This document shows positions 11,020 through 17,778 of a stretch of 64,000 bases of DNA, piece after piece. Within the stretch, counting starts at the first letter, position 1. Each line of letters begins with the position of its first letter. The DNA lies in the NCBI RefSeq assembly GCF_025787225.1, contig NZ_CP090958.1, positions 2,652,550 to 2,716,549 on the forward strand, written 5' to 3'. This DNA comes from Saxibacter everestensis. Its GTDB lineage: Bacteria; Actinomycetota; Actinomycetes; Actinomycetales; Brevibacteriaceae. A program made the position numbers and the translations under genes. A model generated the notes under the pieces. That model did no database searches and was not told where the DNA came from. It saw nothing but the letters and a program-made list of their open reading frames with translations.

Positions 11020-11523
11020 TCAGAGCGACCGGAGTTCCCGGAGGTGGTTCGACATCGATTCCATCGCGCGGCCCATCACAGCGATTTCACGTTCGGTAAG
11101 CCGGTCGATCACATGGCGTCGAACCCCGCGAACATGCACGGGCGCGGAATCCTGCAGCAAGGCATAACCGGCCTTCGTCATCCGGCACAGCACTCCCCGG
11201 CCGTCTTCCCGGATGGCGCTGCGCACCAGGAGGCCACGGAGTTCCATTCTGCCGACGATATGCGTCAGTCGCGATCGGGAGATCGCCACGTCCCTGGCGA
11301 GCACGGCCATCCGCATCGAGTGTTCCGGCTGCTCGCTGAGCCGGACCAGAAGCTCATACTCGCTTAGGCCTATGCCGTGCGATGCCCGCAGTTCCTGGTC
11401 GAGCTGCGCCATCAGCAGCAGGCTGGCTTCCATGTAATTGCGCCAGGCGTGCTGCTCGCTTGCGGACAACCATTCGACATCGTCTTTTCCGACATCAACG
11501 GCCTCAGCGACGTGATTCGACAT
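11020..11523 (-). CDS. MarR family transcriptional regulator
   Basis: A 167-residue winged-helix regulator. It has an N-terminal dimerisation helix, [20 protein letters not shown], the recognition helix region [20 protein letters not shown], and a wing with [15 protein letters not shown]. The usual DRR of the wing reads DGR. It lies inside the heme gene string between hemB and hemL with about 44 bases on each side, and has its own leaderless-type promoter (TATTGT, 11536-11531, 7 bases before the ATG). Whether it controls heme genes is unknown. Confidence 0.87.
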
Positions 11524-11567: not shown

Positions 11568-12587
11568 TCAGTCTTCGGAAGTGCGCGGCACGCGTGTGCC
11601 GGTTCCGCCGGTCAGGCTCTGCGCAACCTCGGTCGCCCAGTAGGTCAGGATCACGTCTGCACCGGCGCGCTTGAATCCGAGCAGCGATTCAATGATCGCC
11701 GGCCAGCGTTCGATTGCCCCGGCCGCGGCCGCTAGCTCGATCATCGCGTACTCGCCGGAGATCTGATAACTCCACACCGGGACATCGACGTGCGCGGAAA
11801 TGTCGGCAAGCACATCGAGATACGGCATCCCGGGTTTCACCATCACGATGTCGGCGCCCTGCTCGATGTCCAGCCGGACCTCCCGCCCGGCCTCGCGTCC
11901 GTTCGCTGCGTCCTGCTGGTAGGTGCGGCGATCGCCCTTGAGCTGGGATTCCACCGCCTCACGGAACGGGCCATAGAACGCGGAAGAAAACTTAGCGGCG
12001 TACGCCAGGATGACCACATCAATGAATCCGTACGCGTCAAGGGCGGCGCGGACGTGCGCGACCTGGCCGTCCATCATCCCCGACAGGCCAAGAACAGAGG
12101 CGCCCGCCCGGGCCTGGGCCAGCGCCATCGAGGCATAGCGCTCGAGTGTCGCGTCGTTGTCCACCACGCCTGCGTCGTCGAGCACGCCGCAGTGACCGTG
12201 ATCGGTGAACTCGTCGAGGCAAAGATCAGCCATGATCACCGTTTCATCGCCGACTGCCTCGGCCAGCGCGGAGATGGCACGGTTGAGGATGCCGTCGGGT
12301 GCGTCGGCCTGACTTCCCTCGGCGTCTCGCAGCGAAGGGATGCCGAACAGCATCAGCCCTCCGACGCCAGCCGCAACGGCTTCCTTGGCTGCGGCGACGA
12401 GGGAGTCAAGCGTGTGCTGCCGAACGCCCGGCATGGTTGTCAGGTCAATCGGCGTCTCGATGCCTTCCTTGACGAACATCGGGAGCACCAGGTCCGCTGC
12501 GTGCAGGCGATGCTCGGAGACCAACCGGCGGATGGCCGGGGTGGTGCGCAACCGGCGCGGCCGCTGTTCCAGGTCGACGGCCGCCAT
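11568..12587 (-). CDS. hemB: Delta-aminolevulinic acid dehydratase HemB
   Basis: Condenses two 5-aminolevulinate molecules to porphobilinogen. It is 339 residues with the Schiff-base lysines in [12 protein letters not shown] and [12 protein letters not shown]. The metal loop reads [12 protein letters not shown]: the outer two cysteines of the zinc site are kept, but the middle one is Asp, an intermediate between zinc and magnesium types that is common in actinobacteria. The ATG directly follows the hemD stop (TAGATG). Confidence 0.95.
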
Positions 12588-14207
12588 CTAACGGGCCCTC
12601 CGGCGCGCGGCACCCTTGCGCTGGCTCGGCCGCAGGACGGGTTCGCCTGCCTCGATCGCGGCGTCCCGGGCGGACTGAGCAAAGTCGGCAAGGCTTTCCA
12701 CCAGCGAGATCGCGTTGGTTTCGCTTGCCAGCACGTCGACCCTGAGCCCATGTTCTTCGGCGGTCTTGGCTGTAGCCGGGCCGATGCACGCGATAACGCA
12801 GCTCGCATGCGGCTTTCCGGCGATGCCGACCAGGTTGCGAACCGTAGACGAGGAGGTGAAAAGCACGGCGTCGAAGGTTCCGTTCTTGATCGCCTCACGA
12901 ACCGGCGCGGGGGGCGGCGACGCGCGGACCGTGCGGTAGGCGGTGACGTCGTCCACTTCCCATCCGCCTTCCTGCAGACCGGCCACGAGCGTCTCGGTGG
13001 CAATGTCAGCACGCGGCAGGAACACCCGGTTGATCGGGTCGAGCACCTTGTCGAATGGCGGCCAGTCAACCAGAAGTCCCTTGGCAGACTGTTCACCACT
13101 CGGAACGAGGTCCGGTTCGATGCCCCAGTCGCGCAGGGCTTGAGCGGTTACTCCACCGACTGCCGCGATTTTCAGCCCCGCGAATGCCCGCGCATCCAGG
13201 CCGAATTCGCTGAACTTCTCCTTGACGGCGCGAACCGCGTTAACCGAGGTGAAACCGACCCATTCGTAGCGGCCGGTGACCAGCCCCTTGATTGCCTTCT
13301 CCATTTGCTGCGGCGTCCGCGGCGGCTCGACGGAAATAGTCGGGACGATGGTACTGACAGCGCCGAACTCGGTAAGTCGTTCCGTGGTGGATGTGGACTG
13401 ATCCTTGGTGCGCGGCACCAGGACGTTCCAGCCAAACAGCGGTTTGGTCTCAAACCAGGAAAGGGCCGCCCGATGTGCGATCCCCGGACCGAGCATCGCA
13501 ACCAGGTCGGTACCCAGCTCACGGCGCCGGGCCAGCGCAGCCAACTGCGGCTTGACCTCGGCCAGAGTGGTCTCGACCGAGGCCTGCGAAACACGCGTGC
13601 CGTCAGCACTGATCACTATCGGCGTCTCGGGCTTCCAGCCGTCCTCGATCATCGCGGCCGAGGTTTCAATCAGTTCCCCGGCTGAACCGAGCAGCACGTT
13701 GGAAGTCTTCTTTCCACTGACGACGTTCTGCACGGCCTGGGGCCCGGCCTGCACCACGTGCACTCCGCGAACCCCATCAGCGGTCAGCGGGACACCGGCG
13801 TACGAAGCCACTGCCGCCGGAATTGAAACGCCCGGCACAACCTCGAACTGGATGCCGGCCTTGCGGCACGCCAGCCCTTCTTCGGCGAGACCGGCGAAAA
13901 CGGCGCCATCGCCATCCAGCAGCCGCACAACATGACCGTGGTCCTTCGCTGCCTTGACCAGTCGTTTGGCTCGGGCCGCGTTGGACATCGGAAGCGACGC
14001 GGCATCGGCTTCGATGCCGATCAGCTCGGCATCGTTCTTCGCGTACCGTTCGACGACCGCGGCGTAAATATCGCGGTCGTAGATGATCGCACCGGCTTGC
14101 TCGATCGCCTCAATCGCTCGCACTGTGAGAAGACCAAGGTCTCCGGGACCCACACCGACGAAGCTAATGGATCCCAGCGGCTTGCTATTGGCTTTAACCG
14201 TGCTCAC
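12588..14207 (-). CDS. hemD: Uroporphyrinogen-III synthase with N-terminal C-methyltransferase-like domain
   Basis: A 539-residue fusion. Residues about 12-245 resemble the SAM-dependent uroporphyrinogen-III methyltransferase fold, opening VGVGPGDLGLLTVRA. Residues about 260-515 are the HemD domain that cyclises hydroxymethylbilane, starting NVLVPRTKDQ and including VGFTSVNAVRAVKEKF and FTSSSTVRNLVG. In the first domain the usual GGDP loop reads DGDGAVFAG, so methyltransferase activity is uncertain. This fusion is known in mycobacteria and relatives. The GTG at 14207 has AAAGGAG 7 bases upstream and is preferred over the TTG at 14213. It follows the hemC stop by 2 bases. Confidence 0.9.
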   Translation of the reverse strand: MSTVKANSKPLGSISFVGVGPGDLGLLTVRAIEAIEQAGAIIYDRDIYAAVVERYAKNDAELIGIEADAASLPMSNAARAKRLVKAAKDHGHVVRLLDGDGAVFAGLAEEGLACRKAGIQFEVVPGVSIPAAVASYAGVPLTADGVRGVHVVQAGPQAVQNVVSGKKTSNVLLGSAGELIETSAAMIEDGWKPETPIVISADGTRVSQASVETTLAEVKPQLAALARRRELGTDLVAMLGPGIAHRAALSWFETKPLFGWNVLVPRTKDQSTSTTERLTEFGAVSTIVPTISVEPPRTPQQMEKAIKGLVTGRYEWVGFTSVNAVRAVKEKFSEFGLDARAFAGLKIAAVGGVTAQALRDWGIEPDLVPSGEQSAKGLLVDWPPFDKVLDPINRVFLPRADIATETLVAGLQEGGWEVDDVTAYRTVRASPPPAPVREAIKNGTFDAVLFTSSSTVRNLVGIAGKPHASCVIACIGPATAKTAEEHGLRVDVLASETNAISLVESLADFAQSARDAAIEAGEPVLRPSQRKGAARRRAR

Positions 14208-14209
14208 AG

Positions 14210-15169
14210 TCAAGCTCCTTTAGTGGACATTGTGGTGGGTAAGTTGCCATCGATCCGCTCGAGCAGCAGGTCGGCCAGTTCCTCGCCAAGCGTGCGGGCG
14301 TCAACCACCCGGCCCTGCACGGAATGACGAATCAGATGCCCGTCGGCATCTGCCAATACTGCCGCCAGCGACAGCTCGAGACCGGCGTCGCCTTCGACCA
14401 CCTCGGCCAGCGCCCCCAGCGGGGCAGAGCAGCCGGCCTCGGCCCGGGACAGCACGGCCCGCTCGGCGATGACGCACGCACGGCTTTCCGCGTCGTCGAG
14501 TTCGGCCAGCGCCTTGGCGATGAAACGTTCCTGGTCCGTGCTGGTCGCCGTGATGGCGCGGCATTCGACGGCGAGGGCGCCCTGGCCCGGAGCCGGCAAC
14601 ATCTGCAGAGGATCGATCACCTCGGTGATCCGATCAGTTTCACCGAGCCGGCGCAGGCCTGCATTCGCCAGCACAACGGCATCAGCAGCCCCTGAGGTCA
14701 CGGCCTCGATTCTGGTTCCGACGTTTCCGCGAATCCCGATCACCTCGATGCCGAACCCAAGCGCCTCAAGCTGAACCTGACGGCGGGGCGAGCCGGTCGC
14801 CACCTTCGAGCCAACCGGAAGCTCGCCAAGGGTCAGATTGTCGCGGGCGATCAGGGCGTCCCGAGGATCTTCCCGTCCGGGCACCGCGACCAGGTCGATT
14901 CCGGGTTCCGGGGTCGTCGGCAGGTCCTTCAGCGAGTGCACGACGAAGTCGACCTCGCCGCGAAGCAGCGCGTCCCGTACGGCGGAGACGAAGACTCCTG
15001 CGCCGCCCATCGTGACCAGCGGCGCCCGGTTGACATCACCCTCGGTCACGATATCGACGAGCTCGACCGGGATCCCCGTCACCGCGGTCAGTCGCTCGCC
15101 TACCAGCTTCGACTGTGTCCGGGCGAGTTTGCTGCGCCGAGTGCCCAGGCGCAGAACTGGGGTGGTCAT
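14210..15169 (-). CDS. hemC: Porphobilinogen deaminase (hydroxymethylbilane synthase) HemC
   Basis: Links four porphobilinogens into hydroxymethylbilane. It is 319 residues: LGTRRSKLARTQS at the start, the catalytic Asp in VDFVVHSLKDLPT, substrate-binding arginines in GSPRRQVQL and IRGNVGTRIEAV, and the cofactor-attachment cysteine in RAEAGCSAPLGAL near residue 250. The ATG overlaps the hemA stop by 4 bases (ATGA). Confidence 0.96.
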   Translation of the reverse strand: MTTPVLRLGTRRSKLARTQSKLVGERLTAVTGIPVELVDIVTEGDVNRAPLVTMGGAGVFVSAVRDALLRGEVDFVVHSLKDLPTTPEPGIDLVAVPGREDPRDALIARDNLTLGELPVGSKVATGSPRRQVQLEALGFGIEVIGIRGNVGTRIEAVTSGAADAVVLANAGLRRLGETDRITEVIDPLQMLPAPGQGALAVECRAITATSTDQERFIAKALAELDDAESRACVIAERAVLSRAEAGCSAPLGALAEVVEGDAGLELSLAAVLADADGHLIRHSVQGRVVDARTLGEELADLLLERIDGNLPTTMSTKGA

Positions 15170-16605
15170 GACTTCTCCTGAATCGAAATGTTGCCTGGCA
15201 AATGCTGCAGCTGCTCGCTGTCGAACACGGTGCCCGGTAACGGCAGTACGTCTAGCGGACCGGTGGCATCGATCGAGAGGTCGAAAAGCGCCCGGAGTGC
15301 ATCGGCGTAGCTCCCACCACCAGGTTCCGCGGCGAGTTCCTTCACCCGGACCGTCGGCGTGTGCATCAGCTTGTCGGCCAGCCGGTGCATGCTCTTGCGC
15401 ACCTCGTCGAGAACTCTCGCATCAACGTCCGGGCCGAGACGGGCAGCAAGCCGCGCGAACTCCTTGTCGCGGACAGCCTTTGCCCGGCCGCGCAGCGCTA
15501 TCACCGTCGGCGCAACCGAATTGGCGCGCCGCTTGCTGATCAGCTTTGCGGTCTCACTCGCGATGATGGCGCGAACCGCGGCAATCGCATTCGTGACGTC
15601 GGCGGCATCGTGATGCGGACCGGCGGCGAAAATCCGGCTGAGCTCCTCAAGCCCCACCAGCCTGACGTCGTCGATGTCGCCAACTTCGGGGGCGATATCG
15701 CGAGGAAGCGCCAGGTCGACAAAGAACTGCCGGCGCCGGGCATGCGCATCCCCTCGCTGCACCGACCGGGTCGTGCGAAGGTCGCGCGTCGTGCGCAGTT
15801 CGCGAGCAGCGGCGACTGAGTCGGCCCCGATGATTGTGCCCCTGGCTCCGGTGCAGGAGACGATCAGGTCCGCGTCCGCCACTTCGGCAACCAGCGTGTC
15901 CCGATCCAGTTCGACCGCTCGGCCGGCGACCGTAGCGGCGAGGCGTTGCGCGCCGTCAAGGCTGCGGTTGGCAATGGCGATCCGTCCGACGCCGAGCCTG
16001 CTGAGGTTCGCAACCACAAGGCTGCTCATCGCGCCGGCGCCGACCACGAGTGCGTTCACCGCGCCCAGATCGCCGAGCCAGCCGGGTGCCGAGTCGAGCG
16101 CGCCGCTCAGCAGTGATTGGGCCACCCGGTCCAGGCCAGTTTCGGAATGCGCCCGCTTGCCCACCCGCAGCGCCTGCTGAAGAATGCGTCCCAGCTCACT
16201 GCTCAGGTTTCCTTCGGCCTGTCCCAGCGAAAGAGTCGCGCGGAGCTGACCAAGGATCTGCGCCTCGCCGACCGCCATCGAGTCCAGGCCGCAAGCCACG
16301 GTGAGCAGGTGTTCGACCGCCCGCTCTTCGTAGTGCACATAAAGGTGCTCGCTGAGCGTCGTCCATTCAGTGCGGATCGCGTCGACCAGCGCACCCCCCA
16401 GGTCGGCGAGACCGCCGTGGAAGGTGCTGACGTCGGCAATTATCTCCAACCGGTTACAGGTAGCCAGCACGGCGACACCGTTGACGTAGCCACCTTCGGC
16501 GATCGCCCGGCTCAGCTCGCGGACCTGCGACTCAGAGAGCGCAGCCTTCTCCAGCACCGACATCGGAGCAGAGCGATGCGAGATTCCTACGATGAGGAAG
16601 GCCAT
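15166..16605 (-). CDS. hemA: Glutamyl-tRNA reductase HemA
   Basis: First enzyme of the C5 pathway: reduces glutamyl-tRNA to glutamate-1-semialdehyde with NADPH. It is 479 residues. It starts MAFLIVGISHRSAP, has the nucleophilic cysteine in VLATCNRLEI near residue 50, GEAQILGQ near residue 115, and an NADPH-binding region NALVVGAGAMSSLV. The ATG abuts the rex stop (TAGATG), which puts it directly under rex. Confidence 0.95.
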   Translation of the reverse strand: MAFLIVGISHRSAPMSVLEKAALSESQVRELSRAIAEGGYVNGVAVLATCNRLEIIADVSTFHGGLADLGGALVDAIRTEWTTLSEHLYVHYEERAVEHLLTVACGLDSMAVGEAQILGQLRATLSLGQAEGNLSSELGRILQQALRVGKRAHSETGLDRVAQSLLSGALDSAPGWLGDLGAVNALVVGAGAMSSLVVANLSRLGVGRIAIANRSLDGAQRLAATVAGRAVELDRDTLVAEVADADLIVSCTGARGTIIGADSVAAARELRTTRDLRTTRSVQRGDAHARRRQFFVDLALPRDIAPEVGDIDDVRLVGLEELSRIFAAGPHHDAADVTNAIAAVRAIIASETAKLISKRRANSVAPTVIALRGRAKAVRDKEFARLAARLGPDVDARVLDEVRKSMHRLADKLMHTPTVRVKELAAEPGGGSYADALRALFDLSIDATGPLDVLPLPGTVFDSEQLQHLPGNISIQEKS

Positions 16606-17352
16606 CTAGGACAACTCCTTGGCCATGACCAGTTCGTCGGCCGCGGCACGTTGCGCGTGAAAGGCGAGAATCTGGAGTTCGATCGACAGGTCGACTTTTC
16701 GCAACTGGACCCAGTCAGGCACCTGCAGCACGCTCGGGGCGAAATTAAGAATTCCGCGGATACCGGCAGCAACCGCCCGATCGCAGATTTCCTGCGCTAC
16801 CGGGCCGGGAACGGCCAGCACCGCAAGGTGTGCCCCGGTTTGATCGATAACTGTTTCGAGGTCATCGATGCTGCGCACCAGGACGCCGGAGACGGTCGTT
16901 CCGACGATTGCCTCGTCGGCGTCGAACATGGCGACAACTGTGAAGCCCCTTGAGGCGAAGCCGGAGTACTGCGCGAGGGCGGTTCCGAGGTTTCCGGCAC
17001 CGAAGATGGCGACGTTCCAGTCCTGGCTCAAACCGAGGTTTTCCGAGATCTGCTCAACCAGGACCTTGACCTCGTATCCGACGCCCCGGGTTCCGTAGGA
17101 GCCGAGATACGAGAGGTCCTTGCGCAGCTTGGACGAGTTCACGCCGGCGACCTCAGCGAGGTCTTCGGAGGACACAGTGATCACGCCGTCTTCCGCAAGT
17201 GTGCTGAGCGCTCGCAAATAGACCGGAAGCCTCGCGACGGTGGCGTCCGGAATGCCACGCTCGGCATCAAAAACGGTTCCATCCTTATCGGTGCCTGGCT
17301 TGGCGATAACCGCCGGCCAGCCCACCCGATCTGCGGACTCGGACTGCGACAA
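16606..17352 (-). CDS. rex: Redox-sensing transcriptional repressor Rex
   Basis: Represses respiratory and redox genes and lets go of DNA when NADH is high. It has an N-terminal winged helix (GIPDATVARLPVYLRAL, then NSSKLRKDLSYLGSYGTRG, the recognition part), a Rossmann NAD(H) domain with FGAGNLGTALAQY, and the conserved end RKVDLSIELQILAFHAQR. The frame extends to a TTG at 17430, but that lies on top of the Rex operator and upstream of the likely -10 box, so the true start is probably TTG 17352 (GGAG 12 bases upstream) or GTG 17325. It is followed without a gap by hemA. Confidence 0.9.
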   Translation of the reverse strand: MSQSESADRVGWPAVIAKPGTDKDGTVFDAERGIPDATVARLPVYLRALSTLAEDGVITVSSEDLAEVAGVNSSKLRKDLSYLGSYGTRGVGYEVKVLVEQISENLGLSQDWNVAIFGAGNLGTALAQYSGFASRGFTVVAMFDADEAIVGTTVSGVLVRSIDDLETVIDQTGAHLAVLAVPGPVAQEICDRAVAAGIRGILNFAPSVLQVPDWVQLRKVDLSIELQILAFHAQRAAADELVMAKELS

Positions 17353-17387
17353 GGGGGTCGGTGTCTCCTCGGCTGAATCGAACTGCG

Positions 17388-17393
17388 ATACTA
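17388..17393 (-). promoter_or_regulatory. Candidate -10 box of the rex-hem promoter
   Basis: TAGTAT on the minus strand, about 35 bases before the preferred rex start. The Rex operator lies 19 bases upstream, over the expected -35 region. No good -35 hexamer is visible. Confidence 0.45.
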
Positions 17394-17412
17394 TGCGATC
17401 CAGCCTAGGCGC

Positions 17413-17430
17413 TTGTGAAGGGAAGCACAA
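17413..17430. promoter_or_regulatory. Rex operator (ROP site)
   Basis: TTGTGAAGGGAAGCACAA matches the published actinobacterial Rex operator TTGTGAA-N4-TTCACAA at 12 of 14 defined positions, with a perfect left arm and the outer five bases of the right arm intact. It is placed to block the promoter of rex and the hem genes behind it, implying autoregulation. Confidence 0.8.
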
Positions 17431-17526
17431 AGTGGACGAATCCCCTGAAATGTGCTCCAGCGGCGCAATCTAAGGGCTCGGCACACCCGGACAGTGACGG
17501 GCTTCACATCCGGCTCGCCCGGTCAG

Positions 17527-17778
17527 TCAGGAAGATCCGGACTCCGGCGCCAGCGCCTTTCGCAACCGGTCGGCGTCCACTCGCCAAAACGCGTGCTGGA
17601 CACCGTCGATCAGCACCACCGGCACCTCGTCCGAATACTTCGACCGCAGCTGGGCATCCTGGTCGACGTCGACCTCAGCAAAGTGGTGACCGGTCTCCCG
17701 TGCCACCGCCTGCACGATCGGCCGCGCCTCGTCGCAGAGGTGGCAGTTGGCGCGGGAAACTAAAAGAACCTCACTCAT
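17527..17778 (-). CDS. Glutaredoxin family protein
   Basis: An 83-residue thioredoxin-fold protein: EVLLVSRANCHLCDEARPIV with a CxxC redox site, and EVPVVLIDG, the cis-proline segment. It fits the DUF836/glutaredoxin-like group. The frame runs on upstream to 18009, but the ATG at 17778 gives the correct fold start. It is divergent from the HAD gene, only 18 bases away, and appears to be leaderless, with TACCCT (17791-17786) 7 bases before the ATG. Confidence 0.85.
   Translation of the reverse strand: MSEVLLVSRANCHLCDEARPIVQAVARETGHHFAEVDVDQDAQLRSKYSDEVPVVLIDGVQHAFWRVDADRLRKALAPESGSS

Follow-up and report, generated by a model that had tools for sequence, protein, structure and literature searches.

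A predicted Rex operator at the promoter of the rex-hem operon of Saxibacter everestensis and its uneven fate among relatives

The locus lies in a 64,000-nt stretch of the Saxibacter everestensis genome (contig NZ_CP090958.1, positions 2,652,550 to 2,716,549), which is called the window here and whose own numbering is used below. Five genes follow one another on its minus strand. The first, rex (16606..17352), encodes a protein of most likely 248 aa that matched the NCBIfam model NF003992 above its cut-off (E 9.4e-104). The product was aligned with solved Rex structures along both the DNA-binding and the dinucleotide-binding parts (E 2.7e-45) and is predicted to belong to the Rex family, carrying DNA-binding and NAD(H) domains. 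The genes hemA for glutamyl-tRNA reductase (15166..16605), hemC for hydroxymethylbilane synthase (14210..15169) and hemB for porphobilinogen synthase (11568..12587) were each identified by NCBIfam matches above cut-off. Between hemC and hemB, hemD (12588..14213) encodes a methyltransferase domain fused to uroporphyrinogen-III synthase; it was assigned by Pfam matches above cut-off (PF00590, residues 16-220; PF02602, residues 276-505), its NCBIfam matches being below their cut-offs. The stop codon of rex (16606) abuts the ATG of hemA (16605), hemC overlaps hemA, hemD overlaps hemC and hemB abuts hemD, so that the gapless order on one strand reported in the initial annotation was found as described. 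The methyltransferase domain of hemD is a tetrapyrrole methylase domain, and because of this fusion the operon may also feed the sirohaem or cobalamin routes.

A glutaredoxin-like gene (17527..17778, minus strand; PF05768, E 5.8e-19) lies upstream of rex, and a longer frame of this gene gave no NCBIfam match. On the other side, hemB is followed by a MarR-type regulator gene (11020-11523; PF12802, PF01047), flanked by gaps of 44 and 43 nt, and by hemL. Both intervene before the cytochrome c maturation genes, which were recognised by Pfam as encoding ResB, assembly and DsbD-type proteins. The suggestion that control might extend into these genes met with the two gaps around the MarR-like gene and with a weak hairpin in the first of them, between hemB and the regulator gene; terminator-like hairpins in the stretch were, with 7, no more numerous than in shuffles (7.8). 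Nothing in the sequence speaks for read-through from the hem genes into cytochrome c maturation, although it may still take place.

The longest open frame of rex starts at 17430, and the claim that this frame is wrong was upheld by comparison with a relative. Genome G002 carries an identical stretch of 21 nt (GGAGACACCGACCCCCTTGTC) at the start of rex, and an in-frame TAG is located 18 nt before the TTG. The long frame is not conserved, because this stop codon precedes the same TTG in G002. Sequence comparison thus indicates that the long frame is probably wrong and that the TTG at 17352-17350, which is preceded by a GGAG ending 12 nt before it, is the likelier start codon.

A predicted Rex operator, TTGTGCTTCCCTTCACAA, is located on the minus strand at 17413..17430. 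It agrees with the consensus TTGTGAANNNNTTCACAA at 12 of 14 defined positions, and the two mismatches are those expected from the original description of this 18-mer. From the base composition of the window, the analytically expected number of sites with at most two mismatches is 0.036 in 64 kb, and it falls to 0.00015 for the 174 nt (17353-17526) that separate the likely rex start from the upstream gene. When up to three mismatches were allowed, the count in the window was not significant (2 found against a mean of 0.87; 23 of 100 shuffles reached 2). The second of these matches, at 937-954 with three mismatches, lies inside the frame of an AMP-binding enzyme, presumably menE, and was set aside as expected by chance. 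Over the 4.05-Mb genome, 65 sites had up to three mismatches, compared with 30 for a reversed control pattern, and six had up to two (two with one mismatch and four with two, the rex site included). About 2.3 of the latter would be expected by chance, so that agreement at 12/14 is nothing unusual across the genome and the match score alone is not decisive. The weight is carried by the position and the conservation of the rex operator.

The position is that of a promoter. The left arm of the operator is the hexamer TTGTGC (17425..17430, minus strand), taken as the −35 element on account of its fixed distance to a TANNNT box and of the Streptomyces avermitilis footprint, which encompasses the −35 region. 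The probable −10 hexamer TAGGCT (17402..17407, minus strand) follows 17 nt after it, giving the array TTGTGC-N17-TAGGCT. A TANNNT lies 17 nt after the left arm in all seven near relatives that have the operator, the window included. In a larger named set of loci, the spacing was 17 nt in 71 of 80 and 18 nt in the other 9.

The box TAGTAT just downstream of the operator, noted earlier, is present at 17393-17388 on the minus strand; its role as a −10 box was not borne out, as it is without counterpart in relatives. It lies 31 nt from the left arm, a distance at which a TANNNT occurs in one of the seven near relatives with the operator (the window itself), in none of the other six and in none of the 80 named loci, and the conserved TANNNT starts 14 nt further upstream. 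TAGTAT is therefore probably not the −10 box of the rex promoter, judged from these alignments. When the placement of the S. avermitilis footprint is applied to the window, transcription is predicted to start near 17394 (minus strand, within 1-2 nt), and TAGTAT (17388..17393) would most likely belong to the 5′ leader. Another pair proposed by a promoter scan, TTCACA with CATAGT, was rejected: CATAGT overlaps TAGTAT and finds no support in relatives. By analogy, Rex bound at its operator would cover the −35 element and the spacer of the rex promoter.

For the survey of relatives, the operator was called present when at least 11 of 14 positions agreed within 300 nt upstream of rex. Under this threshold, 7 of the 28 rex loci of near relatives (39 genomes searched) have it, representing 7 of 11 genera. 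In the named set, which was not selected for the site, the operator and an adjacent hemA were found in 80 of 80 loci. An alignment-based scan gave 589 relatives, and the named set comprises the 80 best of them in similarity; most are Streptomyces and only 11 distinct operator sequences occur, so that the set is far from 80 independent cases. The strict array TTTGTGNNNNNNTTCACRANNNCYTANNNT was matched in 28 of 296 genomes of the class and its reversed control in none. Of 30 array loci taken, 29 had an adjacent rex, and the remaining one (L075) had only the glutaredoxin-like gene; the presence of the operator in 29 of 29 pattern loci is circular, because the array itself was the basis of their selection. 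Three of them (L047, L049 and L050) coincide in position with the relatives L019, L016 and L018. The full tally of 137 rows, made up of 28 loci from relatives, 29 found by the pattern and 80 from the named set, was drawn from 156 loci, from which L001-L015 and L046, collected for other purposes, and L044, L045 and L075, with no rex match, were left out. The operator counts given here were kept separate from the pattern-selected loci, which had been pooled with the others in the column frequencies. At the level of sequence, the site, the promoter geometry and their conservation thus bear out the proposal of a Rex operator on the promoter of rex-hemA-hemC-hemD-hemB.

The rex-hem operator is not conserved throughout the family of the window. 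It was absent from all 18 rex-bearing loci of the g2 group, where the best matches reached 7 to 10 of 14. G002, which a tree of SerA and Ndh makes the sister of the window genome, at weak support (0.444), keeps TTGTGC-N17-TAAGGT and has lost the right arm of the operator. G029 and G031 have neither the operator nor a nearby hemA. In the g2 loci (for example L026-L038), rex lies close behind the glutaredoxin-like gene, and neither operator nor array is found. The glutaredoxin-like gene there is itself preceded by a small basic gene, which we take to be AURKAIP1/Cox24-like.

Two further possibilities were considered for g2. A palindrome, CTGTG-N8-CACAG, lies some 290 nt upstream of the glutaredoxin-like gene and might be taken for a moved operator; it was provisionally set aside, since it sits before the small basic gene and 7 of the 18 rex-bearing g2 loci lack it. 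Nor is a changed specificity of the g2 Rex likely: all 18 rex-bearing g2 genomes retain the ordinary operator upstream of ndh.

The g2 loci also bear on how much the operator matters for haem. The site could be real and yet have little effect on haem synthesis, most hem mRNA arising from read-through of the glutaredoxin-like gene or from internal promoters, so that Rex would mainly tune its own expression; we consider this unlikely. In 27 of the 28 loci of near relatives, rex has the glutaredoxin-like gene upstream of it, and in the window this gene lies on the same strand, so that read-through could provide Rex-independent hem expression and could weaken the control of haem by Rex. In the g2 loci, moreover, hemA still follows rex although no operator or conserved promoter array was seen before it. 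Against this reading, the operator in the window, 96 nt past the stop of the glutaredoxin-like gene, begins a conserved promoter of its own, and rex and hemA are contiguous. In our main reading, the site on the promoter common to rex and the neighbouring haem genes is very probably the means by which Rex controls them all.

Whether the motif denotes Rex at all was examined at other genes. In the window genome, a site with one mismatch precedes the ATG of ndh by about 20 nt (L002:1501-1518; G000:C1:2413285-2413302), a gene recognised by Pfam as Pyr_redox_2 and presumably encoding the type II NADH dehydrogenase. A site of at least 12/14 within 50 nt of the ndh start was found in 21 of 21 rex-bearing genomes of the family and in none of the four rex-less ones (best 8 to 10 of 14). 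The latter form one clade (support 0.998), and the joint loss of rex and of the ndh site therefore counts as a single event, not four, whereas the Fisher value computed for these counts treats the genomes as independent. These four genomes (G006, G007, G012 and G020), a g2 clade without a convincing rex, are small (2.3-2.6 Mb). Outside the family the link was weaker, and the ndh site was present in one of three rex-bearing genomes (G029, not G031 or G037) and in neither of the rex-less G035 and G036. In the window's family, this motif is tied to the presence of rex.

Another site with one mismatch lies about 80 nt upstream of serA (L001:1501-1518; G000:C1:903311-903328). Among the 21 rex-bearing family genomes, the serA site matched at 13 or more of 14 positions in 11, at 11 in 4 and at 10 or fewer in 6; the best match in the four rex-less family genomes was 10/14. 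Outside the family, it was found neither in the two rex-bearing genomes searched (G029 and G038) nor in the rex-less G034. serA is no unreported Rex target, since SerA and SerC are already placed in the proposed Caldicellulosiruptor Rex regulon (PMC8579813). In 11 of 11 chosen rex-bearing genomes, 4 to 6 sites had at most two mismatches, and the reversed control gave 0 to 4. A further palindrome with two mismatches, TTGTGACGCCACTCACAA (L006:1501-1518; G000:C1:3822640-3822657), lies about 100 nt before a gene for a dehydrogenase E1 component (PF00676). No site was found in the 1.5 kb upstream of the cydA match of the window genome (best 8/14).

The consensus of Crp/GlxR-type regulators, TGTGA-N6-TCACA, lies inside that of Rex. 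The site might accordingly be read by such a regulator, with cAMP-type control in place of redox control; the half-site spacing is identical and the genome encodes Crp-type HTH proteins. This reading is very improbable. Five of the 7 near relatives with the operator and all 80 named loci have TTGTGC instead of TTGTGA as the left arm, and the window site, TGTGC-N6-TCACA, departs by one mismatch from the Crp/GlxR consensus. All four rex-less genomes have lost the ndh site and yet keep Crp-type regulators; this speaks against Crp as the reader of the motif, with the weight of one loss event. The counterpart in S. avermitilis was footprinted with Rex itself. That the site upstream of rex is a chance palindrome can be dismissed with near certainty, since, for all that some 2.3 such sites are expected per genome, only 0.00015 is expected within this upstream stretch and the site is kept in place and in phase with the −10 box across many families.

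The reading in which Rex acts on rex and the haem genes agrees with work on Streptomyces. In S. avermitilis, the footprint of Rex on the rex promoter spans −39 to −17, over TTGTGCACGCGTTCACAA, and takes in the −35 region; deletion of rex raises rex-hemAC1DB (PMC5355995). As in the window, rex is joined there with hemA, hemC, hemD and hemB in one operon, and the operator, which encompasses the −35 region of rex, has the same C at position 6. The S. avermitilis regulon also includes cydA1B1CD, atp and nuo, whereas cydA of the window genome is without a site. In S. coelicolor, Rex controls its own gene together with haem genes of the same operon, rex-hemACD, which unlike that of the window is named without hemB (cited in PMC5355995). 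The Firmicute Rex proteins of B. subtilis and S. aureus share with the window a palindrome of the TTGTGAA type, and ndh, which has a predicted Rex site in the window's family, is a target in B. subtilis. The Firmicute targets listed in one account of them comprise genes of fermentation and nitrate metabolism, cyd and ndh, and no hem genes figure in that list (PMC5355995).

We are highly confident that Rex represses rex-hemA-hemC-hemD-hemB from the −35 and spacer region of TTGTGC-N17-TAGGCT and that it is released by NADH. Bound to the −35 hexamer and spacer of the common promoter, Rex would block RNA polymerase. A rise of NADH relative to NAD+, for instance when oxygen is short, would release Rex, and the operon would then be transcribed to give more Rex and more haem-precursor enzymes. 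With a Rex operator on the rex-hem promoter, the NADH/NAD+ ratio should by analogy to S. avermitilis set transcription of the rex-hem operon. This scheme takes over from the Streptomyces work that Rex binds and represses, that NADH releases it, and where transcription starts; the site, the promoter geometry and conservation, the gene identities and the tie between motif and rex in the family were obtained by computation.

Such an arrangement is already known in Streptomyces. What is less ordinary is how unevenly the operator has fared within a single family, and haem control appears from the sequences to be the less stable part of Rex control in the window's family. Rex-haem control may have been ancestral in the class and yet expendable, the switch having moved to NADH recycling and serine synthesis; we regard the case for and against this as evenly balanced. 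At least two losses in the family lie behind it, the eroded right arm in G002 and the operator-less state of 18 of 18 rex-bearing g2 loci, and alongside these losses Rex sites were kept before ndh in 21 of 21 and before serA (at least 13/14) in 11 of 21 rex-bearing family genomes.

The analysis places a promoter, a likely start codon and an operator for the rex-hem operon of an actinobacterium outside the work on S. avermitilis and S. coelicolor. The promoter-operator array is widespread, and the C of its left arm is missed by the textbook consensus. In this family rex and the operator have each been lost in nature, which should help in asking why only some lineages couple haem synthesis to NADH.
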